Shown here in pieces: positions 4,801 to 58,500 of a DNA stretch of 64,000 nucleotides. The position numbers were made by a program, and so were the translations under genes. The stretch's first letter is position 1. Every line of letters begins with the position of its first letter. Source of the DNA: Bugula neritina. Taxonomy: Eukaryota > Bryozoa > Gymnolaemata > Cheilostomatida > Bugulidae. A model generated the notes under the pieces. It saw only the letters and a list, made by a program, of their open reading frames with translations. It did no database searches and was not told the DNA's origin. The stretch covers positions 16,363,498-16,427,497 of the forward strand of contig OZ037767.1 of the NCBI GenBank assembly GCA_964035545.1. The letters are read 5' to 3'.

Positions 4801-6300
4801 CAGTCTAAACTATGCCAACATGCATTCCGGGTATGTGTGTTAGCTCTCTCTATCCCAGTCTAAACTATGCCAACATGCATTCTGGGTATGTGTGTTCCCC
4901 TTACTATACTGAACACAGGCCCTCGTATTTGTAGTTCGCACATAGAATAAAATACTTACTTTTTTTCTCTTAGACCTTTACTTGTCATAATTATTATGCA
5001 GTTGTATTCATCATTCAACAGTTTTAATTCAAGTGTAAGCTGACTGTCCAGAACATCTGGCAGTTGTTGCCATTCAAGTGTAGCCGTAGTATTGGTAAGT
5101 GACGTCATGTCTAAAGCTTCATAGAATTGATTTATATTCACAGCGGAAACATGGCGTCTGCTAGCAGCTCATTCTCCAGTTTGAACAACAGCTCAATGGG
5201 TGGCATGAACATGGGAGGAATGGGTGGGGGCGGTAGCAACATGACCCCTCACCAGGTACAGCAAGCTGCTCAGAGTCTCAGCAATAGTGAGTACTAAAGC
5301 GTATATCAAATACACACTACTATAGCATATGTGTTATGGTAACTGTATGACATAAGGAAACTGAACACTGGTCATGGTTTAATCTACCTCCATATATCTA
5401 TTTCTATCACTTCTCAATCAATCAAACTTTCCTACACATTTCTTTATCCAATGGGTAGTAATGTTGTTAGTCGTGCCTCTTAGCTGGTCCCTTAGGAATC
5501 ACACTGTCTGCCTCATTACAGTGATGAGAAGTTTCAACAACCTGGGCAGTGGTATCAACAACCTGAATATTGGTACCCGTCCACGCAACCCAGTGTTGGA
5601 GCAACTCATACAGACCCTGAAGCTCACAGGCTACACGGATTCAGCTGCGGAGGAAATAGCCACTGCCCTGGCCACACTAGCCAACTACGGAGTGCTCAGT
5701 CTAACTGGAGGTAGTTTACTCGGTAATCTCATGAACCTCAACCGTCTCAATAATGGTTCTCCGGCTGCCAATGGCAGTCAATCTTCTGTACCTTCATTAC
5801 TCGGAGCAACGCAGGGCTCTAGAACTGATGGCCAGTCTGCTTTTGGTAGCTCTGATGATGACAGTGCCTCTCTCTTAAGACAGCTCACACAAACACTGGC
5901 TCGCGGCAAAACTGGGGGCGGTGCTGATGGGTATGCAGGCGTCAAAGACGAGCCTGGTGTCTACAATAGTGGCTCGCTTTTTGATAGTAGCGGCGGTTAC
6001 GGTGGGTTTGGCGGTCAGCCAGGGTCAAATAGTCCCGAGCCTCAGGAAAATCAAGAGATTGAGGTTGCTGAAAATCTCGCTGGGGCAATTATCGGCCAGC
6101 AAGGCAGGGGTATTACAGAAATCCAACACTTGACTGGCGCTAGCGTTTCCGTAAGCAGAAGAGGTGTGTATGCGCCTGGCACTCAAAATAGAGTCGTTAC
6201 TATAACCGGGGCGGCGTCTTATGTTGCTAAAGCCGCTATGATTGTGCGGCAAAAAATTCAAGAGGCTGAGCAAAGGCGAGCCGCGCAGACATCGTACTGA
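1822..6300 (+). CDS. NOVA: NOVA-like KH-domain RNA-binding splicing regulator
   Basis: Seven coding exons: 1822-1909, 2835-2987, 3270-3424, 4419-4563, 4722-4830, 5144-5286 and 5522-6300. Their total of 1572 nt gives 523 residues, and all splice phases agree. The N-terminus has the NOVA nuclear-signal motif SRKRPL followed by TKR. KH1 (exons 2-3) has GAVIGKGG and [10 protein letters not shown]2 (exons 4-5) has GVIIGKGG and RIVTVSG. A Gly/Asn/Ser-rich linker with a helical stretch ([15 protein letters not shown]) leads to KH3 at the C-terminus, with [11 protein letters not shown] and [10 protein letters not shown]. From family knowledge NOVA proteins bind YCAY clusters in pre-mRNA and steer alternative splicing in the nucleus. 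KH3 has GQQG in place of the usual GKGG loop. Intron 3 carries a LINE fragment, and the end of exon 5 is tandemly duplicated. Confidence 0.93.
3629..4335 (-). mobile_element. 5'-truncated LINE (non-LTR retrotransposon) in NOVA intron 3
   Basis: A 181-codon open frame (3762-4307, minus) resembles the C-terminal part of non-LTR reverse transcriptase ORF2: [10 protein letters not shown], then a Tyr/Arg-rich helix RRMYIVKN, then [12 protein letters not shown]. On the element's sense strand the 3' end is a short AATC microsatellite (gattgattgattgatt on the plus strand at about 3630-3647), as in CR1/L2-type LINEs that end in microsatellites instead of poly(A). No upstream RT or endonuclease is present, so this is a 5'-truncated copy. 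Family assignment beyond LINE is a guess. Confidence 0.7.
4787..4896 (+). repeat. Tandem duplication of NOVA exon 5 end plus its splice donor
   Basis: Two adjacent 55-bp copies (4787-4841 and 4842-4896) differ at three positions, all C/T. Each contains the last 44 nt of exon 5 and the donor GG|gtatgt. The second copy therefore offers a second donor and a new acceptor-like tatcccag|TCTAAAC. Confidence 0.9.
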
Positions 6301-13298: not shown

Positions 13299-16200
13299 AT
13301 GCCCAAAGATAGAGCCGAAGTTCACGTTGTATACTGGTAATTATTATTTCAAGCTGCTGTTATTATAAGTAAAATTATAAATACAATATTCAACTTTATA
13401 TCAACTTTAACTTTTAAGTGAACTCAAAACTGTAAAGTCTAAAGATTTATCATTTTGATTTGTATTTTACTAAATTTAGTGCTCAGTCTAGAAGTTCAAG
13501 TATAACTATCAGTATTAAGTTTAGTTACAATTGCTTGTCAATTGTTATTAGTATTACTCTCTGCTATGTAAGTAAATACACGGCATCTGCTTCGTCACAC
13601 TCATAGTCAAGTTATACTTCCTTGCTTGATGTTGATCATTATATTTATTTTATCAATAACTCTCTAAGTTTACCCAAGGCCAATGGTATTAATATTATTT
13701 CTTGCAGTGTTAGTACTACTCTACTAGTACTGCAAGAAATAATACCACTGAGTTACAGCTGTACAGCTGAAATTTCTAACCGGTCTATTTTTTCTCTCTT
13801 TACCATTCCTATATTTATAATTTATATTATTTTCTATCACCAATATAATGCATATTAAAAACTGTTTCAACGTTACCCCACATAATTAACATCCCCCCCC
13901 CAAGGTTTTTTTGATTAGAATAATATTTAGGCTTAACATGATATTGATGAAAAAGCTGCACAGTCATAGTTCTATTCACTGCTTTTAAAATTAACAATGA
14001 AAGATCAAAATCGTTATGCAAGACAAGTGATCAAAAGTGATGAGTCACAGGCTGTTGATAATAATATGTTATGTAATGTAATGAATGGTTTGGTAATGTT
14101 GATAATGTGCTAGTCGGATATTTTCATATCTTAGGCAACCACTCTCAACCTTTAACAAATTAACGGTGTATCTTTTCTATGGTATATGTTAAATTTCAAA
14201 CTTATCAACTATAAAATGCGAATAGAATTCTAGCATGATTTAGCAGTTTTTGTCTTTGCTTCTCCTTTGTTGTTGAAGAATAGTAGCTGTAAAGTTTTTA
14301 TGCAGGGAAGTGTGAAATGAAATTATAGCTTTTCAATACTCTTCACATTGAGTTTTCATTCATACCAAGTCATTTATGTGAAAGGTCAATATTATTTGTT
14401 TGGTAAGCTCCATTCATTCATGTTATTGTGAGTTATTAAAAAAACTTGCAAAGTAATTTCTGTTTCTTCCAAGTGACTGCAGTTTATGTATATTCTACTA
14501 TGATTACTGCCACCAGTATTCTGCTGCCAGCTGGCCCCAACAGCAATAAGAAATTATTAGACTAGTAGTCAGGGTTGAGACGAATAGCTCATTTATAGTG
14601 AAGAGTTTTAAATAGATATATGGATTGACTATGAACTGAATGTGTGTCCTAAGTTATTAAGTTATAAGGCTATTGAAATTCTCAAGTTCCAATAAGATTC
14701 AAAATGACATCATACATTTAGGTAATTTCTGGTCTATTTCCTATTAGTTGTAGTCAAACTGGCCTGTAGACCAAACAAAGCTTGGTTTTATTTCGCCTAC
14801 ATATGGTTTAGACTATGTATTTATGTTTTGTAGTGGTGCCTGAGGCTACGAACCAAAGGTGAGTCTAACTTACTCATCAAATTATCTTCAAGTTGTGTTT
14901 CCAGAGCTAGAAATGTCAGTTCCAGAAAGTAACTAAACATTTATATAGACAGGAAGCATAATTGGAAGGTTTTAACACAAAATTCGTCCTCAGTAAGACT
15001 GATGGGGTGACTTTAGTCCAAATTTTAACTTTAAAGCCTCACAATAAGACTTGATGCATGTAATGTTTGTAATGTTACCAGATTTTCCAACACGCTATTG
15101 AAGTTGCCTGATATTTGAACTGTGTAAAATATTTTTGTATTTGTATAAATGTATAAACTCGTGTTGCTGTGTCCGATTTTCTAGTACCTGCGCCTGAAGA
15201 CTGAACTTGAAGACGTCTTTGGCGACGCGGTGCTTATGGTGAGTCCATTTTGTTGTATATTCATAACAAAATAATATACGTAACGTAATGCATACTTAAC
15301 TTAATAATATATAATTTATATTCATACCTGCATTGACTGTACCAGTATAATTATACAGACTGTCACACATGCAGCTATATAATATGCAAGTCAATGTGGT
15401 GCAATGTGTACCAGTATATCAGTATAAGATTTAAAATAGAGATGAGAGATAGTGGTAATGGAATTGTTTAAGTAATAGAAATACACTTCCACCTTGAATT
15501 CTCTGCTCTGTATACTCTACTCAGTATACTCTACTCTGTATACTCTACTCTGTATACTCTGTATACTCTGTATACTCTGTATACTCTGTATACTCTGTAT
15601 ACTCTGTATACTCTGTATACTCTGTATACTCTGTATACTCTGTATACTCTGTATACTCTGTGTACTCTGTGTACTCTGTGTACTCTGTGTACTCTGTGTA
15701 CTCTGTGTACTCTGTGTACTCTGTGTACTCTACTCTGTGTACTCTGTATACTCTACTCTGTATACTCTACTCTGTATACTCTACTCTGTATACTCTGTAT
15801 ACTCTGTATACTCTGTATACTCTGTATACTCTGTATACTCTGTATACTCTGTATACTCTGTATACTCTGTATACTCTGTATACTCTGTATACTCTGTATA
15901 CTCTGTATACTCTGTATACTCTGTATACTCTGTATACTCTGTATACTCTGTATACTCTGTATACTCTGTATACTCTACTCTGTATACTCTACTCTGTATA
16001 CTCTACACTGTATACTCTACATACTCTGTATACTCTGTATACTCTGTATACTCTGTATACTCTGTATACTCTGTATACTCTGTATACTCTGTATACTCTG
16101 TATACTCTGTATACTCTGTATACTCTGTATACTCTGTATACTCTGTATACTCTACTCTGTATACTCTACTCTGTATACTCTACTCTGTATACTCTACTCT

Positions 16201-16790
16201 GTATACTCTGTATACTCTGTATACTCTACTCTGTATACTCTACTGTGTATAATACCATATAATAAACATTTTTACAGACAGGGGAAGGAACTCCTACTAA
16301 AACCGGGTTCTTTGAAGTTACCATCAAAGGAGGAAAATTGATCCACTCTAAAAAGGTGAGGGCTGTGCTATTATTAGTGTCTTCTCTAATAACTGTAAAG
16401 CAATATTGATGGCTACATAATATTATATAATGTGATCTACTTTGGAGTTATTCTATCACCATGTGCTGGTAGGCATGCTAGCATGTTGGGTGTTGGTGAG
16501 GCTTTACCATTATCTAGATGTTTGTACTCCTGGGGTGATAACTCTATGACTCCTTATTCCTGTGAAATCATAATGATGGATACAAATGCATGATTTCTAA
16601 GGCATGACAAACATGAATATAAAATAGGAAATTATATAAATTATTTATTTGAAGACATACAGACAGACACACCAGTAACTTAGCTACTCCATTGACAGAG
16701 ATTTTGTGTTGTTTGTTTCAGAATGGAGACGGATTTCCCACCAAGCCTGACAAGATTATAGCAGCAATAGAACAGTTCTTGTCAGAGTAA
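13299..16790 (+). CDS. SELENOW: Selenoprotein W (UGA-encoded selenocysteine)
   Basis: Five coding exons: 13299-13336, 14834-14858, 15185-15238, 16278-16355 and 16722-16790. Their total of 264 nt gives 87 residues. Exon 1 ends VVY-TG|, and exon 2 supplies T-GGT-GCC-TGA-GGC-TAC, so the protein reads C13-G-A-U16-G-Y, the CxxU redox motif of selenoprotein W, with the TGA at 14841-14843 read as Sec. Downstream YLRLKTELEDVFGD, TGEGTPTKTGFFEV and GGKLIHSKK match the SelW/Rdx thioredoxin-like fold. From family knowledge it is a small cytosolic thiol redox protein. All splice joints are in phase only if TGA is translated. A SECIS element is present in the 3' UTR. Automatic annotation will probably miss exon 2 (25 nt) or stop at the UGA. 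Confidence 0.95.
13684..13746 (+). other. Strong hairpin in SelW intron 1
   Basis: Left arm tattatttcttgcagtgtta (continuing gta) pairs over about 23 bp with the right arm ending actgcaagaaataata, with only two G-U wobbles and a loop of about 6 nt (ctactc). A pre-miRNA-like foldback or a tiny inverted duplication would both explain it. The left arm also contains tttcttgcag, a good 3' splice-site consensus. Confidence 0.55.
15500..16248 (+). repeat. (TACTCTGTA)n minisatellite in SelW intron 3
   Basis: About 750 bp of a 9-bp unit tactctgta, with short variants (tactctact, tactctgtg). The block of tgtg variants at about 15660-15728 is clustered, pointing to local expansion. The same unit occurs in ZNF106 at 44565-44815. 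Confidence 0.95.
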
Positions 16791-21931: not shown

Positions 21932-24753
21932 TCACTTGACTTGACTAGACACTGGGGAACGTGTAGCCCTCTGTTCTATCACGACAGTAGCCCCCTCAGA
22001 TTTACAGGCTAACTGCTTTTTTAAAGCCTCACGCAAACATCGAAAAGCCTTGGCAGTCGCGAACGGAGTTTGCGTGATCGGATCAAAGTAACGGGCTTTC
22101 AGTCTGGTGATAGGACAGATAACTCTAGGACGTACGCGTCTCTTCGGAATATTGAAATAATCTTTGGCTGTTTTATCATCGCTAAATATTAGAAAAGTCC
22201 GAGAGCATTTTTCTGTTGTATTTGATTTGTCTGGAAGGGTGTCTGATACCTCCCTGAAAGAAGAAAGATACTATTAGTTATCAGACTAGGGGAGAATACA
22301 GTTTGTAGGGGAGATAACTCCGACCATAGTTACACCGACCGCACAATTATTACCCAATTTTTGAGATTTAGACAAGTTTTTAGGAAGCATAATTAAATTA
22401 ACGAAAAAAAGTTAATGCCCTTGAGAATCTTGCAAAGACTTGAATTCTCCAGCGTATAGCGGAGTTACTGTTGGTAGCTTCCTTTATATAATTTAAAATA
22501 GAAAGGGATGCAGAGAAATCAAAGTAAAAGGTGAGATTTTGTAATGCAGCGCTTACGTGACGTTGGGTTCGGAGTCATCTTCCCGAATAATCGGCATAGC
22601 AACCGAGTGGTAGCGAATCATAGGGCCAGATGAGCTCGTCTTCTGAACTCTCACTTTCTTTCGCTCCAACTCCAGCTTGCGATAATGTTCTACAAGGAAA
22701 TGCAAAAACTTGAGTCGCTGAGCTACAGTTATACTATTCTACAGTTACACTACTCTACAGTTATACTACTCTACAGTTATACTACTCCACAGTTATACTA
22801 CTCAACAGTTTTACTACTCTACAGTTATACTATTCTACAGTTACACTACTCTACAGTTATACTACTCCACAGTTATACTACTCTACAGTTATACTACTCT
22901 ACAGTTATACTATTCTACAGTTATACTACTCTACAGTTATACTACTCTACAGTTATACTACTCTACAGTTATACTACTCTACAGTTATACTACTCTACAG
23001 TTATACTACTCTATCAAGAGACTTGAGAATACTTACCAAGAGACTTGAGATTACTCTGTTCCGTGATTTTAGCCTCCGCCAACAACTCTTCCTGAGTCAG
23101 CCGTCTCACTGCTGCCACATTTTTCCTGGCAGCAATGTCTCTCAACATTTTCTCCTTCTCCTTTGCCATTCTGTCCTTCTCTCTAGTCACAAACTGCTCG
23201 GTCTTCTTCACAGTCGACGATCGTTTAGAACGAAACCCTGTGGTCCAAGATTCAGTGTCAACACTATTTAGTTAGTATACAATACGTTGAAATCTATACC
23301 CTACTTCATAGAGCTAATATAGTGTTTGGTTGAACGCTTAAAACACAGGCTACAGAATAAGTTGATGGTCCTAAAGCTAAGAACATCTTTCCCATATCTA
23401 CTAACCAACCACTCACCACTAGAGTATATCTGACTCCTTCCCATATCTACTAACCAACCACTCACCACTAGAGTATATCTGACTCCTTCCCATATCTACT
23501 AACCAACCACTCACCACTAGAGTATATCTGACTCCTTCCCATATCTACTAACCAACCACTCACCACTAGAATATATCTGAACGCTGGAGGAAGCAACACT
23601 CTGTCTGGTCCTCTTCTTTCTTGGTTTGGAAACATCAGGCTTCTTTACAACTTTTCCATCCTTTGCTCGCGCTGGCTCCTACAAGCAAGAAGTATATAAA
23701 GTCAGCAGTGTATAAAGTCAGCAGTATATAAAGTATTATATATAATAAGTAATTCAAAATGTTAACTAGCCCAAATTCCAAATACTTGCAAAAAAAAATC
23801 AAAACTGCCAAGTCTATAAGTTGAACTAAAATCTTGAATCGAGTCAAGGTATTTCAAAATTTTAACAGCAACTCGAAAAAATTTAATTTTTGACAAATAA
23901 AGGTATTATATAAAAAACTTAAGAGGCACTAAAAATATTAAAATAAACAAGACAAACTTTGTAAGCTTTAGTGTCAATGCCACGTTTCTTGCGCTTGGGT
24001 GTGTCATCTTCACTGCCACTTTTCACTTCATCGTTTTCGTCGATACTAAAGTCTGAATCAATCACATCTTCGTCATCGTCTGATTTGGCTACAAACTCTC
24101 GGTCATCATCCGCCTTGAAAATACAACAAACTCACAGTCCACTGGGCAAAGAACACATTTTTAATAAAGTAGATGCAATAGTTGCACAACACTATTAGTT
24201 GAACTCATACTTTAAAACTAGCTGCCAAACTAAGTTAAGCACCACTTATTTTGATGAAAAAAAACTCGCGCAATTTTATAGTTGCTATCTCTGTGAGAAA
24301 ATCCTGATGGAAAGGTTTTTGTTTAAGCAGGCTAAGAACTTATTCGGATATGACACAGGAGCAATTATGACTGAATGCTCTTCCTAAGATCACCAATGGC
24401 CTTTGTTAGGGTTTGAACACATGATTTCTTGTTCACTGAGCAAACGCTCTAACCCCCTAGACCACGGCTGCTCCCTATAACTTATTGTAATAAAGTACCT
24501 CATCAAACCCCCCATAAGTTGTAGTATAAAATACCTCATCAAACCCCCCATAAGTTGCAGTATAAAGTACCTCATCAAACCCCCCATAAGTTGTAGTATA
24601 AAGTACCTCATCAAACCCCCCATAAGTTGTAGTATAAAGTACCTCATCAAACCCCCCATAAGTTGTCGTATAAAATTCATCTTCTCCTTCATCTTCGAGT
24701 AAGCGAGCCATTTTATTGCCGGCATTGGCCCGTCTCTCTCTGGTCGCAGCCAT
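21932..24753 (-). CDS. VPS72: VPS72/YL1, H2A.Z chaperone subunit of SRCAP/TIP60
   Basis: Six minus-strand coding exons: 24643-24753, 23958-24113, 23564-23678, 23037-23237, 22557-22689 and 21932-22253. Their total of 1038 nt gives 345 residues, in phase throughout. The N-terminus has NAGNKMARLL, then the acidic EDEFYTTTYGGF, as in YL1, which binds H2A.Z-H2B. Further acidic/basic sequence (VIDSDFSIDE, TKAYKEP) follows. A middle motif RRLTQEELLAEAKITE and the C-terminal YL1_C region (CSRTFLIFSD, CPITRLKARYFDPIT, PFATAKAF) complete the family order. It acts in nuclear chromatin remodelling to deposit H2A.Z. Two of its exon ends are duplicated in tandem repeats. Confidence 0.95.
22700..23012 (-). 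repeat. 16-bp minisatellite in VPS72 intron 4
   Basis: About 19 copies; in gene sense the unit is agtagtataactgtag. It fills most of the intron between exons 4 and 5. Next to the exon 4 donor (23036) a 14-nt piece of exon end, ctcaagtctcttg, is also repeated inside the intron. Confidence 0.9.
23388..23583 (-). repeat. 49-bp repeat duplicating VPS72 exon 3 end and donor
   Basis: Four copies of a 49-bp unit. In gene sense each contains cagatatactctagtg|gtgagtgg, the last bases of exon 3 plus its 5' splice site. The copy nearest the exon (donor at 23563) is inferred to be used, because it gives the right phase (G|GG) into exon 4. Confidence 0.9.
24262..24474 (-). mobile_element. tRNA-derived SINE, copy A
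   Basis: On the minus strand it starts gcagccgtggtctaggggg (A-box-like), has tgttcaaaccc (B-box-like), then a body including cattcagtcataattgctcc. The same head and body occur at 37800-38012, and part of the body at 60662-60765. It is inserted in VPS72 intron 1, at the end of the 36-bp array, and interrupts its last unit. Confidence 0.8.
24480..24665 (-). repeat. 36-bp coding minisatellite with five in-frame splice donors (VPS72 exon 1)
   Basis: The unit is 36 bp (12 codons). In gene sense it encodes YGGFDE, then the donor GAG|gtac, then VLYTTT. GT donors lie at 24642, 24606, 24570, 24534 and 24498, exactly 36 bp apart. Because 36 is a multiple of three, any of the donors keeps the frame into exon 2. 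Confidence 0.92.
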
Positions 24754-27241: not shown

Positions 27242-40613
<13,372 letters not shown>

Positions 40614-43557: not shown

Positions 43558-46500
43558 TCAGTAGCTGTTGATATGTGCTTCATACAGGTGGCACCGTAGA
43601 GCCTGAAAAACAGCATATGTACAATACAGCATATGACGCAATGTACAACTTATAATATAATATATTATAATATACAATGCAGTATATCGCAAACTATACA
43701 GTGTATAATGTAATATACAGATATCTGAATTTCGACCTGGTCGGTCTATTTTTACAAGCAAAATTTGGGTTCAGAAATTGAGTGTTGATTGGATGAGTGT
43801 TTTTAATTGGTCCAATGCCAACATTATCATTCCATTCAATAGAAATGTAGTGACACCAAATAGTAAGTAATGTGACGAGTTAGTGTCATGTGACTAGCTG
43901 GTGTCATGTGACCAGTAGACACCATGTGACTAGCTGGTATCATGTGACCAGTAGACACCATGTGACCAGCTGGTGTCATGTGACCAGTTAGAGAATGACT
44001 TACGTCGACGGACTTGTGGTGTTCGGACGAGGAGCAGCCATCCCAAGGACAAGTTCGTCGGGAGAGAATATCGGTAAGGTGAGAAGAGAGGATGTGGTTG
44101 ATGAGGTGCTGGGGGTGACCGTACGGCATGTTGCAAGAGTTTATCTGCAGAGAAAACGGGATATAATTTACCAGCATAAAAGTTGATCTGCTGAAAACGA
44201 TATCAATAAACCACACATAGCATATTAGAGGACAATTTAACTGAGTACAAACACTTACCTTGCACTTTACCTGAGTACAAAGATTTACCTTGCACTTTAC
44301 CTGAGTACAAACACTTACCTTGCACTTTACCTGAGAACAAACACTTACCTTGCACTTTACCTGAATACAAACACATACCTTGCACTTTACCTGAGTACAA
44401 AGATTTACCTTGCACTTCAACTGTGTGCAGTTTACACTGAAGGATTTCGTTAACCCATTTTGATCACCGAAAAACACTTTTCCTTTTTTATATGTAATGG
44501 AGAGCAGAGTAGAGGGGAAGGAGTAGATATTGATCAGCTTGAGATTCTAGAAAGTATATCACAGAGTAGAGTATACAGAGTATACAGAGTATACAGAGTA
44601 TACAGAGTATACAGAGTATACAGAGTATACAGAGTATACAGAGTATACAGAGTATACAGAGTATACAGAGTATACAGAGTATACAGAGTATACAGAGTAT
44701 ACAGAGTATACAGAGTATACAGAGTATACAGAGTATACAGAGTATACAGAGTATACAGAGTATACAGAGTATACAGAGTATACAGAGTATACAGAGTATA
44801 CAGAGTATACAGAGTGATATGATACGGTAAGTTTACCTGAATATCATACTGAGCCAAAGTTCCGTCCTCAGAAGCAGTATAAAGTACGGGTGTATCATTA
44901 TTCCTCCCGATACAGAATGATCTGAGGCTTCCCAAGCTAGATGTAAGTTCAGAGACGAACTTACCTTTCTACAGAGTAATAACATTGTGAGTACAGTAAA
45001 CACTATTGTTATATAGCACATGACAGTGCAGTGTACTATGTACGTACGTACTAAGAAAGAAAAGTATATCATCTTACATATGATAGATACACTAGGTAGT
45101 AGGTAGGCTATAATGTAATTATGTACTTACATTTTGATATAAACACTTACCTCATAATTATATACTTTCACCGAGTTTCCAGATGATACGTACAGATAGG
45201 GTCTAATCTCATCCACCTAAGTAAACAATTACAAACATATCTAGAGAAAAGATATGTTATGATATATAGTCAACACAAGCACCTGATATGCTATGCACAC
45301 ACCTGCAAGCACCTTGGTAACTGTGTCACCGATGGCAGGTGTCTGATGAGAAGCCCAGACTTGATATCTCTAATGCTGACAGTACAATCGTAAGAGCCGC
45401 ATATGAGGACGCGACGAGCTCCTTCCTGGGCGGAGCATATCGACATGATTCCTGAACTTCCTGTTTGGTACTTCTCCGCCACACAATCTTCCTGTACGTA
45501 GAAAATATATACACTTACTGTATACACTTACACGTAGATACACTTACACGTAGATATACTTACTGTATAATCTGTACATATACTTACTATATACACTTAC
45601 AAGTAGATATACTTAATATATAGACTTACATGTAGGTATACTTACTGTATACAGGTATAACATACTTACTATCATACTGTATGATACAATATCCCCGTTA
45701 TGAAGGCCGAGGTAAAGGAGCCCAAACGCCTCCATCATACACAATATCGAATGCTTAAGGTCAACTTTCTTCACTATCTCTCCTGTCTAAAACATTAAAA
45801 GCAGAAATTTAGTATTCAATATACTCGCTAATGCCTAGATATAAAATCACCGAGTAACTCAAAAATGATGTTATACGGACTCATTACTATATCAACTTCC
45901 TGTCCAGTGCAGTTCTCTTATGACACAGCATTCGATCAGGTTTGATATGACCTCAGGGTATGAATGTTCAAAGAATTAAAAGTCAAACCATTTTAATAAA
46001 CCCTAAAGATTCAGAATTTTATAGGAAAAACTGAAATAGATACATCGTTATGATAGCTCAGAAGAGGAAAAAGCACACAGTATGAGAGTTATTCCCACAT
46101 ACATCAGCGTTAAAGTGAATGAGTACACCGTCCATATCACCGCTGTACAGCACAATCTTCTCGCTGTGTTTAGAGAGAACAAGCAGAGATCTGATGCTGC
46201 TTTCATGTCCGTGGTAAGTGGCTATACACGCCCCAGTCTACAACATACAGTAGACTCTTATTGGCCGAGACAGAGAGAATTGAGAGTTGTCTGTTCTTTT
46301 AATTGATTCAAGAACTATGCTCGTTGTTTTATATGCTGTATGTATTTAGATATACAAGGTGCCAGTTATGAAACTTGATTGTTTGACACAACTTTTTCAT
46401 AATCCAGATTTGCAAATAAAAAATGGGGAGCAATAAACCAGAGTAGCAAGCTATCAACACCGGCGATAAATTAATAATAACAAACTTTCCTAATCAATTA

Positions 46501-49500
46501 CTTCTGTGTAAATATATTATTCTGTAACTGTATCAAGAGAGGGTTACTCCAGACTATGTTATGCTCACACAAACGAGCACACACATCCACAAGTTACATG
46601 TTTACATAATCAAAAGCAAACAGTTGACTCCATAAAAAAATTTAATTTCCTGGGGAAATTTTAAGTCATTACACATATTTGCAAACAACTATAAAACGCA
46701 ATATACTACTCTATTTTAGTACAAATTCAAAATAAAACAAACAAAATTATACTTAAAATGAGAGAAATGGTAAAATGAGCAACAAGCATAAAGAAGCAAA
46801 TGGTTATTACTTCAAGAATACTGATGATCTCTGCATAGGTTACTGCATACAGTAAACTTACAAAGTATCTGTTAGCAAGATTACGAATAATAGGAGTATT
46901 GTAAGATGTTGTTACAATGTAAACACAGTGGCAGCAGCAGCAGCATGTTCAACATAGTATACACAAAGCAATATGCTAGATAAATAGTTAAAGTTGAAGG
47001 TTGTAAAACTGTTCGATATATCTTCATTAGCTTAACATAAGAAGTATTAAGCTGGCTGGGTAGGCTGTCTACGGATAGATTAGCATATGCATGAGGGTAC
47101 TCGGCTGCGGCCATCTTGTAATTGATAGTAAAGTGGTCGTGTGCCAGGGTGAAGGGGTTAATGAAGTCTTGAGTACTTGAAGTGACTTGAAGTGACTTGA
47201 GCTGAAGTGACTTGAAGCTAATCTATGTCCACTGACAATCAATCAGTAGCCAGTATTACTGTAATTTTGGTATTTAAATCTCGTTTGTGTGTAGAGATGA
47301 GAAGTTTAGCCTGTGGTACCAATATCTGCAGAGCTAAGCCTGTACCTCCCCTCTCCATAGCCAATTTTATTACCCTCTTGGTTTTTAATACAGAGCTGGC
47401 TTCATGGTATATTTAGCGCAACAAGGGTTATCTGTCACTAAACTATATTAATTTATTAATATGTATAACAAGTTTTATTATACATGTATAGCCCTTGAAG
47501 TTAAAATTATTTTATTTAACATTGTATTAGCAGTAATTATAACAATTTATAACACTGGCATGGTAGCTCATCTTTATAGTAGGCTGAGTACTAATGTTAG
47601 AACTAGCATTAAGTTTGTACCTCAACGTCAAACCGTCGGATTGTACGGTCACCGGAGCCGCTGAAAAGAGAGTCCCCTTTAACTACCAGACACATGACGG
47701 CAGCGGTGTGTCCCTCGTACACCATCTCATTGTCTGTTTGCATAGCGGTGCGTCTAGCCTGACTCTCTACTATGGCCTTCATCCTTCTTTCTACACTGTT
47801 CAGTCTACAGAGAGAGAATGAGCTAGGAGAGGGATTGTAGGGGTACACAATAAGAACAGGGGAGGGGATTAGCGCCAAGCAACAATACACATTTCAAACT
47901 ATGGTCTTTCATACTATTGTTATTCAAAAATATCACATATTTAAGACAAGTATTTTTTTATAGCATACTTATTGTTAATGATATGAGAGTTCCGTGTTTT
48001 CACTAATCATTTAGCTTACAGTTATGACTTGATAATTGTTTGAGCTATGCGACATATGTCCATGAAGAACTGAATTTATTTTTATAAAGCATAATTTCAC
48101 AAAAAAATAAAAGCAGAGAAAAAAGTTAAAGCAAATGACTGAGAGCCAAACAGCACTAAAGTAACTTCGAACACTATGTAGGGAACGAGGGCCTTGCACA
48201 CAACGATCATTAGCATGAGTAAAAAGACTATTCTTTTTTAGGTTTGACCAGTTAGCTTAAGCTTAAGACAAACATAAAAAACCCGATATTCACTGCGTTG
48301 GAAAATATCTAATTAAGCAGTAGTATACAAATATTAATCAAGATTGCTGCCATTATTCATGGCAAAGTCAACCAAGGCCACATCTAAAAAGGTAGAAGTA
48401 GATAAAATGTATTTGCTTTTATCAACAGGTTAATAATTGCAAATCTTAATTACTATTGGTTAAGTATTGTGTGGGTTTAGAACTGTAGCCGTATTGACCA
48501 ATGAATCCCAGGTGCACGTTGCTAGCCCAGCAAATAGTCAGCAAAGAAGTTGAGTATCATTTAGCCACAACACTTTAATGAGGTAAGATATTGTACGTGA
48601 TCTATAGTGTATAGTATCGCATTTTTGGCTTATGTCCAAGTTCAAAACATAGTTTAATGTGCATAATAGAATTACATTATTTTGCACATATAATGTATAC
48701 ATAAATTGCAGTGCTTTTATATCCGTGGTGTTTTTTAAGTATGTATTTGTAGCCTTTATCATATCATCATAAATTTTGTTATTGCGCTGTTTTGTGGCAC
48801 ACGATGTTTTATAAATGCATATACTATTTTGTATATAATATGCATTTGTTATTACGCATGTATTTCTATGCTATTTTGTATGTATTAGGCAGATGCTAAT
48901 TCATACAGAAATACCAAATTATTGCGTTATTGCTCCAATATTATTGTTATAGAATAACTATTCTTGTCACGAGGCATATGAAAATAACTTGGTGTATTTT
49001 GTCTTCTATAATACAAGAAATACTCAGTCCCTAACTTAGGTTTCCTGGTTAAATCCTATGTCTACAATGTCATAAATAAAAAATTACACCTTACAGAAAT
49101 TATGTTTAACATGGCGGATTTACTATGTTATATGTACACATGGGATGAGGGTGCTATCCCCAGCACAAAACTGTATATAAAAATTGCTTTTGAACTATAT
49201 TTATAATACAATTATGAATTAAAAACTAATTTTAGTAAAGCATTGTTAAAACAATTTCAATAAATTAACTAATTTTAGAAATGGCTAAGCATAATATACT
49301 GCGGCTATTTTTCAGTTTTTACACCACGTTTTAACTCTTTAGCTCGGGGAAAGATGGCGAATAAAATAGAAATGCAGTTGACTGAGAACACAACAAATCC
49401 TTTTCCAGATTACAACTATGACAAATTATTCAATCACCCAGACTTACTGGATTGTCGAAACATCAGCTTGCTGCTGCTATGCCCGACACAATTTGTTGAT

Positions 49501-55500: not shown

Positions 55501-58500
55501 TGTATATACAAGATGAATAATATAATATTTTATTATAGAACCTCACTCACGTTTTTTTGAGTGAGTTTATATAATATAATATTTTATTATATGATGTCAT
55601 ATTATGATAATATAATTTACGCACCTTTCTTAGTTTTGATCTGTTTGTTCTTCACTACTTTAGTTTTAACAACTTTCTTTTTCACTGAAGGCTTGACCTT
55701 GACTTTCTTTGTAGTAGTTCCTGGCGTGGTCTGAAAGAGAGGCTGATGTACGGAATTGAGTTGAAAGAGAGGCTGGTGTATAGAATTGAGTTGAAAGAGA
55801 GGCTGGTGTACAGAATTGAGTTGAAAAAGAGGCTGATGTACGGAATTGAGTTGAAAGAGAGGCTGATCATAGAATTGAGTTGAAAGAGAGGGTGGTGTGT
55901 AGAATTGAGTTGAAAGAGAGGGTGGTGTATAGAATTGAGTTGAAAGAGAGGGTGGTGTATAGAATTGAGTTGAAAGAGAGGCTGGTGTGTAGAGTTGAGT
56001 TGAAAGAGAGGCTGGTGTACAGAATTGAGTTGAGAGAGAGGCTGATGTACAGAACTGAGTTGAAAGAGAGGCTGATATACTTCACAGTAACAAAAGCTGA
56101 GAAATGATTGACTCACCTTCTTAGCCTTCTTGCCGGCCACCGCGGAGTTGGCAGAGTTAGCCTCAGCACCCACAGCAATACCAGCTTCAGTCTGGGAGCG
56201 TTTCTTCACTTTGGAAACAGTAGATGATGAAGTGGATGGAGCCTGATTGGCAGCGTCAGCAGGCAAGTCTAAAGAGTGTTGAGCTACACAATATAGACAG
56301 TACATATTACTATGTACTATATTACATATATTACAATACATATTACTACATACTATATTGCCTATACTATATCATACATATACCACAGTTACCATTACTT
56401 TGAGCATTTGAGTTGACATATCCGGGGAGCTCCAGAACCTCCCGAGTTGAGTCCATTGTGGCAGCAAACTGGTCATCTGCTACGCTCTCTCTGGCTGCAG
56501 AACTCTCCTCCACCATTGCTGACTGGGCAGGCGGCGTCGGCTAGAAGTAAGTAGAATATTGACATGAAACAATAGTCATGGGAGTTGTCTTTTCAACTTG
56601 GGGAAAACTCATGTTTCAAGTTGAACAGCAGCAACAACTGTGACACAAATTCCCTGAGTCATACACAGGTTAAACTTACTAAGTGTCTTAATTTACTCGT
56701 TTAAACAGATAAATCCAAAACTAGTATTACTAAGGTTCAGGCATTTAATTCAAATTGCTGCTACAACAACTGCAACAGGTAGAATTGAATGGCAGCACAT
56801 CTTTTCACTTGCTTGTCACAAAGCCAGAAAGTAGGAATTGTCTCATTCTTTGATTCATGCATTTACTTTACATTGAATACAACACATTCACACATGTACA
56901 GACAGACCTTAGGTGATTGATGCCGAGGTGGGGGGCTGCTTAGGAGGCCCCCAATCTCCCCGATATCCTCGGCATTCACGCTTTGCAGCTCACATGTGAC
57001 GGGCAGGTCTGAGGAAGCCTCTATTTCATAGTTCCTTCCTGTGAGGAGAAATTCGCATGACAGATGTGTGACAGATATATACAGATGTGTGACAGATACA
57101 TACAGGTGTGTGACAGATACATACAGGTGTGTGACAGGCACACTTACCTCGAATTCTCTGCTCTTTCACTACATTCTGAAGTTCGTACTGAAGCTGCCTG
57201 TTGGATCGACCCGACAGCAGTGTCTTCAGGCTGCCGCGCTTGGCTGCGGGAGGCTAGAAAATGTCAACAAGTTTTACAATGCATTATGGGAAAAAAACTA
57301 AACCAATATTACCACCGGCAAAGCTAAATACAAACTACGTCAGTTGCTGGCCTAATGTATGAAGAACAGAGTTATTGAATATATTTTTCGATTTTGCTCG
57401 TGAGATTCAGAGACTATTATCTGCAGATGAAGGAATTTGATTTTGAATGAAATGAGGAGTTATGAGCCCAAATGATGATCCTACACAGAATGTGTACATG
57501 AAATGTCGATTGTACTCTATGTTAATGAAACAAGTAATGAAGCTTGTAAATTGAAATAAAATTATAAATCACACAGTGAATAATGTAGAATTATCTTCCC
57601 ATATCTTTCTTAACCTCTGTGAATATACTTGTTTTGAGTGGATAGAAAACTGAATTAAACAAAAAGCTATTCAACAGTGTTATGAACTTCTCAAATAATC
57701 AGAATATTATGAAATCAATACTAGAGATCAGATCGACTTTAATTTAATGCGAGGAGATAACTCTGAATTATTCAACCTTATGTGGAAAAGAAGCTTTTAC
57801 AATTACCGTGTTTGCAGACACGAAATCAGCTACAAATTGTTGCAGATTCTAAATACAGCAACAAATAAAAGTAGATGAAGAAATAGTAGCCATAACAACA
57901 GAGGTGGTTGCTAAGAGACGATGTAGCCATAGCAACATAGAGGGTTGCTAAGAGATGAGATAGCTATGGCAACAGAGGTGGTTGCTAAGAGACGATGTAG
58001 CCATGGCAACAGAGAGGGCTGGGAGAGACAATGACTGAGATGAACAGGTCATATAGTAATGAAGCAATTGGAGATGATTGTGATGGGAGGCTAACAACAC
58101 ATCAACTTACAAAAATAAGTAAGTTCCGTGAAAATAAGATTAAGACTATTTGCATAAAATCTATGAAAAATCTGGTACTAGGAATAGATAAATGATGTAC
58201 AGCTAGCAATAGAATACAGACTACACTGCACATGCTGGACCACAGGCTACCTACCAATTTGCTCTTCTCACACGACTTGTTGATAGCAGGGAGGGGGGCA
58301 TCTGGATCAGGCTTGATGTTCAGTATGAGCTCAGGCTCCTCCTGGGGTTCTTCTCCACCCTGCACAGGGGGTTTCTTCTGACTAAATCCACCACTGGACT
58401 CGCTAGCAGTTCTTCGTCGCTCCTCCTCGTCAGCGACTGATCCACTTTCATCAGGCCTTGACCTCAGTTCGCCGACACTCTTCAGGCGGCTTTCGGAACT

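Follow-up and report, generated by a model that had tools for sequence, protein, structure and literature searches.

In the ZNF106 gene of the bryozoan Bugula neritina, a 30-bp minisatellite repeats the end of a WD40 exon together with the start of the following intron six times, placing six 5' splice sites in a row. By its anatomy, as far as this can be read from sequence, the array is a mirage, very likely in a phylum new to the class and with all of its donors in phase. Our reading, to which we assign a probability of about 0.65, is that the array is a minisatellite of the mirage type, that its first donor likely yields the main product, and that the other donors would mostly be spliced out together with the intron. 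Positions given without a contig or locus are those of the window, that is, the whole stretch of 64,000 nucleotides that was analysed.

The host gene

The gene on the minus strand around the array has WD40 repeats and, after them, C-x4-C fingers at the C-terminus, with similarity to ZNF106 over the whole C-terminus; vertebrate ZNF106/ZFP106 has the same order of WD40 propeller and C-x4-C fingers. Pfam WD40 and ZNF106-type matches place the upstream WD40 exons at 44837-44968, 45151-45216, 45303-45491, 45670-45786 and 46103-46237, together with an exon ending at 47621 (span 44837-47800). The last WD40 exon (44409-44546, minus strand) is 138 nt long, has phase 0 at both ends and closes with ...SVNCTQLKCK, as judged from its open frame and the ZNF106-type alignment. 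The next exon (44003-44144, minus strand), with the acceptor ttttctctgcag in front, reads INSCNMPYGH... and encodes the remaining C-terminal fingers. Once the two are joined, a C-x4-C finger (CKINSC) results, its first Cys coming from LKCK. Against the Pfam WD40 model the joined exons reach 56.8 bits, with a cut-off of 27.

A protein search with the long query returned 99 proteins, the best two of which were unnamed WD40 proteins with a coverage of 79%. Ten vertebrate ZNF106-type proteins (one hypothetical, the others annotated as zinc finger protein 106 or ZN106) showed 28-31% identity, with a coverage of 97-98% in nine and 89% in one, and in these alignments SVNCTQLKCKINSC is paired with RLNLIQNYRCWWHGC or a similar sequence. 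The vertebrate proteins have no repeat and only a short linker at this junction, whereas the Bugula gene has the array there. A search for a paralogue of the two ZNF106 exons found none beyond the locus itself. With use of the first donor, the C-terminal part of the gene has seven introns, which measure 86 to 1383 nt.

Anatomy of the array

TRF describes the array as 30 bp x 6.1 copies with 91% matches and a score of 308 (44236-44417, minus strand; 182 bp), bearing out the six-copy 30-bp tandem array of the initial annotation. In each unit the 5' splice site sits centrally, between about 15 exonic and about 15 intronic nucleotides, a division that follows from the TRF period and the common exonic bases. 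On the gene strand every unit reads CAG, then 12 nt, then GT; the 12-nt stretch is TTGAAGTGCAAG once and GTAAAGTGCAAG five times, encoding LKCK once and VKCK five times. The exonic half of copy 1 is formed by the final 15 nt of the 138-nt exon, CAGTTGAAGTGCAAG, which recur ahead of all five later donors with two mismatches.

This recurrence bears on the acceptor (cag) that the initial annotation had assigned to each unit. In the exon, CAG, a Gln codon, directly precedes TTGAAGTGCAAG, and the cag of copies 2-6 occupies the matching position. As the last 15 exonic nucleotides recur in the later copies, the cag there is best read as a copied exonic Gln codon, and ahead of copy 1 there is no intron at all. 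The proposal of complete 12-nt micro-exons fares no better. From 44546 on, the frame stays open across the first LKCK, the array, the remaining intron and the next exon, and the ZNF106-type alignment continues up to LKCK; LKCK is therefore the tail of the 138-nt WD40 exon, and copy 1 is continuous with that exon instead of being bounded by introns on both sides. The splicing scheme put forward with the micro-exons, in which a unit is joined to the exon at 44968, leaves out the 138-nt exon (44546-44409) altogether.

We consider it highly improbable that one 12-nt unit is spliced into each transcript as a micro-exon. Copies 2-6 do each have a cag before and a GT after them, and splicing from donor 1 to copy 6 would remove an intron of 138 nt and leave 114 nt to the exon at 44144. 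Against this stand the place of copy 1 within the 138-nt exon, the exonic origin of the cag, and the spacers of 18 nt, which are far below the 86 nt of the smallest of the seven listed introns and had rightly been called too short for introns. What stands of the idea of a minisatellite whose unit is a whole exon with both splice sites is that splice signals lie in the unit; the repeated part is an exon end with its 5' splice site.

The mirage reading, by contrast, agrees with the array in three respects that define the class. The copies are arranged head to tail as in a minisatellite (TRF), the unit crosses the exon-intron boundary by 15 exonic nucleotides of an exon established by alignment, and the copies carry splice signals in the form of six AAG/GTA donors. 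Past donor 6 the intron continues with gtaagtgtttgtact and then CAGTTAAATTG. This intronic CAGTTAAATTG (44233-44243, minus strand) is identical at 9 of 11 positions to the exonic CAGTTGAAGTG (44423-44413), and the pair is our proposed seed of the array: a single-copy ancestor would have had the two 11-nt near-repeats at a distance of 30 bp, and the first duplication may have arisen between them. Growth after that first step could have been by slippage or by unequal exchange.

An assembly artefact can practically be dismissed as the source of the array, since the copies differ at five spacer positions, the array is just 182 bp long and the layout recurs at other genes. An introner element was considered and rejected: a 60-nt piece of the array matched the ZNF106 locus alone in the 215.8-Mb assembly, in a search that skips very common words.

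Choice among the six donors

The six donors all lie on the minus strand and differ in calculated U1 pairing. Donor 1, AAG/GTAAAT (first base 44408), pairs with -6.8 kcal/mol and is the junction that yields the conserved protein. Donor 2, AAG/GTATGT (44378), reaches -8.7 kcal/mol; donors 3 (44348), 4 (44318) and 6 (44258), all AAG/GTAAGT, reach -12.5 kcal/mol; and donor 5, AAG/GTAAAT (44288), again has -6.8 kcal/mol. From donor 6 the intron would span 44258 to 44145, or 114 nt. The initial annotation had seen gtaagt as the donor of every unit. GT is indeed present in all six, and the context GTAAGT occurs in three, next to GTAAAT in two and GTATGT in one. Each later unit also contains a secondary donor-like site, CAG/GTAAAG, in phase as well and with a pairing energy of -9.1 kcal/mol (five sites within 44270-44390, minus strand; G at 44390, 44360, 44330, 44300 and 44270).

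Phase 0 is common to the six donors, and the stretch between them is free of stops. The finger is complete whichever copy is used, as had been claimed for the 12 in-frame nucleotides ending in KCK. Because the period of 30 is divisible by three and each copy ends in KCK, the array is predicted to be tolerated whichever donor is chosen. One donor per transcript would be joined to the acceptor before 44144. Use of donor 1 would give the conserved protein, and the later donors would then leave with the intron in the main product. If a later donor were used, 10 to 50 Cys-rich residues are predicted to be added between the propeller and the finger, with neither of them broken.

With moderate confidence we regard donor 1 as the source of the main product and the in-frame extension as its chief rival. 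According to this rival, which we hold to be possible but unlikely, the later and stronger donors dominate, the exon is lengthened by one to five extra Cys-rich modules of 10 residues, and donor choice and copy number together set the length. The evidence for it is not negligible. The extension is open and in phase, reading VNLCTQVKCK VCVCIQVKCK VSVCSQVKCK VSVCTQVKCK VNLCTQVKCK. Donor 1 shares the weakest calculated U1 pairing with donor 5 (-6.8 kcal/mol, where three later donors reach -12.5), and copy 1 forms a more stable hairpin (-10.6 kcal/mol) than the other two unit types that were folded (-6.7 and -4.4 kcal/mol); both points speak against the donor-1 reading. Moreover, where donors compete, the intron-proximal one is often preferred, as excerpts of a report on DOK7 describe (PMC5585400). 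On the other hand, the linker is short in vertebrate ZNF106-type proteins, and the 143-residue version that includes the array matched no Pfam family. The module is also without a sign of selection, given that the copies differ at five spacer positions and, by eye, every one of these differences changes the amino acid.

Two further comparisons concern the weakness of the first donor. Six other donors of the ZNF106 gene that were scored range from -2.7 to -12.6 kcal/mol in U1 pairing, a range that includes the -6.8 of donor 1. At a second locus, one of two ITPR arrays described below (L034), the last two donors are likewise stronger than the first (-12.3 against -10.7), which limits any claim that a weak first donor is peculiar to ZNF106.

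As to folding in general, each of the three unit types forms a small hairpin (-4.4 to -10.6 kcal/mol), and the donor lies in its loop or beside it. The whole array folds with -63.2, compared with -51.1 in shuffles (z -3.0).

Donor arrays elsewhere in the genome

Within the window the layout occurs a second time, in a VPS72/YL1 gene (24490-24674, minus strand). There, an exon end, ...FYTTTYGGFDE, and its donor are repeated with a period of 36 bp, giving five donors (G at 24642, 24606, 24570, 24534 and 24498); the exon matches VPS72 in the PDB with 1.6e-10.

Genome-wide, three AGGTRWRT sites spaced 12-42 nt apart gave 8,413 matches (4,780 forward and 3,633 reverse, overlaps counted), compared with 426 (212 and 214) for the same pattern read backwards. 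A permuted control, AGTAAGGT three times, gave 246 and 68 matches, and its reverse 0 and 9; this control is non-degenerate, and its fair partner is the count of exact AGGTAAGT, not that of AGGTRWRT. Exact AGGTAAGT at all three sites was found by eye in 22 of 100 among the matches listed.

The 100 listed matches, which come from one strand of the first 2.7 Mb of one contig, contain 14 distinct arrays by eye. From these 14, extrapolation puts the total for the genome at probably about a thousand arrays. At 8 of the 14 the first donor closes a coding frame, which is backed by a database match in five cases and by the open frame in three. The database matches are to ITPR (L033 and L034), PUF60/half-pint (L030), a caspase (L032) and Cactin (L039). 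For L027, L028 and L037 the exon is called from the open frame, with no confident family; no exon was seen at L026, L035, L036 and L038, and at L029 and L031 the exon call goes neither way. On the other strand of L031 (C1:1359500-1361100), an exon-like frame seems to stop at the far edge of the array.

At the junction arrays the copies share the last 4 to 29 bases of the exon, with at most two mismatches. Joining exon pairs at the first donor, which was done for four pairs (two of ITPR, one each of PUF60 and Cactin), produced best alignments without a gap across the junction for ITPR (7.8e-44 and 8.4e-28) and PUF60 (1.3e-56). For Cactin the alignment crosses the junction with 7e-12 and has one gap before it. 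Searches of Pfam gave no match for L027, L030, L033, L034, L037 and the Cactin pieces, and a sub-threshold ankyrin match only for L028; the L030 exon alone had no match in the PDB.

In seven of the nine arrays tabulated with exon phase the extension runs into a stop, so that in general the main donor is probably not one of the later copies. The later donors are all in phase in two of nine junction arrays (ZNF106 and L028) and in five of six cases in L034, numbers too small to judge selection on frame.

A sample of 264 kb, made up of the 64-kb window and 20 stretches of 10 kb, served as a second comparison. Of its 133 merged arrays, five both begin at a repeated donor and have an open frame of 40 codons or more; when the letters were reversed, none of 133 did. 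Two of the five lie within the window, and one is of low complexity by eye. Together with the genome-wide counts, this difference argues that the repeated-donor layout is more than chance. U1 pairing alone flagged 14 of 266 array-strands (the same 133 merged arrays), several of them with no exon in view. An apparent enrichment of GTAAGT within tandem repeats in this sample (41 sites among 46,978 repeat positions, 163 among the 478,128 positions outside repeats) was dropped, as a few arrays dominate it. A crude open-frame test on the 14 arrays found at least 44 codons in eight, with a background of 21-26% (P 0.003 and 0.012). We relied on the database matches instead, since the crude test counts L038, which is not taken as an exon, and misses L039.

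Further candidates, called from their frames, lie in the randomly drawn part of this sample. At L021:6676-6761 and L008:7281-7450 (minus strand), open frames enter a repeated donor at the start of the array. At L007:6536-6650 (plus strand), a frame of 343 codons stops at the array start, and the donor is unrepeated.

A more far-reaching interpretation would combine two proposals: that 5' splice sites seed minisatellites in this genome, affecting at least hundreds of genes, and that the ZNF106 array is a working length dial, in which six competing donors, the first of them weakened, insert from none to five modules of 10 residues, with Cys at every fifth position, between the WD40 propeller and a finger that is always rebuilt. 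Taken as a whole, we find this interpretation doubtful.

Relation to known systems

The closest precedent is found in lancelets, where mirages have been described in Adh3, the globins BflGb6 and BflGb9, TnC and PGBD5. They are minisatellite-like tandem duplications across an exon-intron boundary, carry AG/GT signals in many of their copies and reportedly leave regular splicing undisturbed (PMC3087553; PMC3902484). The ZNF106 array shares with them, as far as the consulted parts of these reports go, a repeat unit that crosses the exon-intron boundary and contains splice signals. It differs from what those parts describe in that the Bugula arrays belong to Bryozoa and have units that are for the most part short (19-38 bp among those tabulated), in that the layout is not confined to single genes but recurs at VPS72 and at 8 of the 14 arrays sampled, and in that the six ZNF106 donors are all in phase within an open frame. 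Among the titles and abstracts listed in searches of the open-licence literature, none described mirages in bryozoans or a set of them covering a whole genome. Reported in the literature found for only a few lancelet genes so far, mirages would now extend to a distant phylum and to several sampled genes.

Minisatellite expansion at exon-intron boundaries also alters gene structure in human genes within segmental duplications (PMC2812944). Those internal tandem repeats are defined by copy-number differences among recent paralogues, and rows of complete donors are not described in the portion of the report that was consulted. Tandem alternative donors, known from wobble splicing and 2-12 nt apart (PMC2878309), resemble ZNF106 in having several donors at one exon end; they differ in that the ZNF106 donors are 30 nt apart and are whole copies of one junction.

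A different origin is offered by the Rogers model, in which tandem duplication of an AGGT-containing segment can give an intron, the copies providing AG and GT, as reported for the potato RdRp (PMC4974935) and fission yeast (PMC3629103). Applied to ZNF106, it would make the array an intron in the making or part of intron growth, which we regard as very unlikely. AGGT does occur twice per unit, three other introns of the gene are largely or wholly tandem repeat, and the excerpted report on fission yeast describes introns built of 24-nt repeats (PMC3629103). However, the array is already followed by an intron that has a unique part and an acceptor of its own, and the donor copies stand at the front of that intron; compared with Rogers-type gain as presented in the sections consulted, no new intron is shown here.

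Bugula offers a natural series of multi-donor substrates, with 5 to 20 near-identical 5' splice sites per row in ITPR, PUF60, Cactin and other genes, both with and without an open frame. Spliceosome choice among near-identical donors at different distances, and the feeding of intron growth or gain by such arrays, could be tested within this one species. Gene predictors may misplace exon ends at these arrays.

Other repeats and frames in the window

Several introns of the ZNF106 gene hold further repeats on the minus strand. The intron 45669-45492 is 83% tandem repeat (45506-45653), with many GTAAGT motifs spaced at periods of 16 and 29 bp, and its repeat begins 16 nt past the donor. In another intron, an array of 30 bp x 11.5 copies (55732-56074) reaches the acceptor; the unit carries a polypyrimidine tract, and the 3' splice site therefore seems to lie within the repeat. 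Two more arrays, at 57060-57137 and 43870-43991, start within about 12 bases of donors of the gene.

Two arrays 28 kb apart, at 15546-16227 and 44568-44815, are built of the same 9-bp unit (TACTCTGTA in one register). A GCA repeat of 765 bp (34826-35590) is directly followed by an array of 82 copies of 17 bp (35734-37122). Two open frames lie on the plus strand. One, of 1039 residues (28221-31340), resembles by eye the polyprotein of a gypsy-type retroelement. The other (5461-6300) contains a KH domain, is 97% identical to a Bugula neritina protein (184 of 189 residues, 68% of the query), and is, we presume, NOVA-like.
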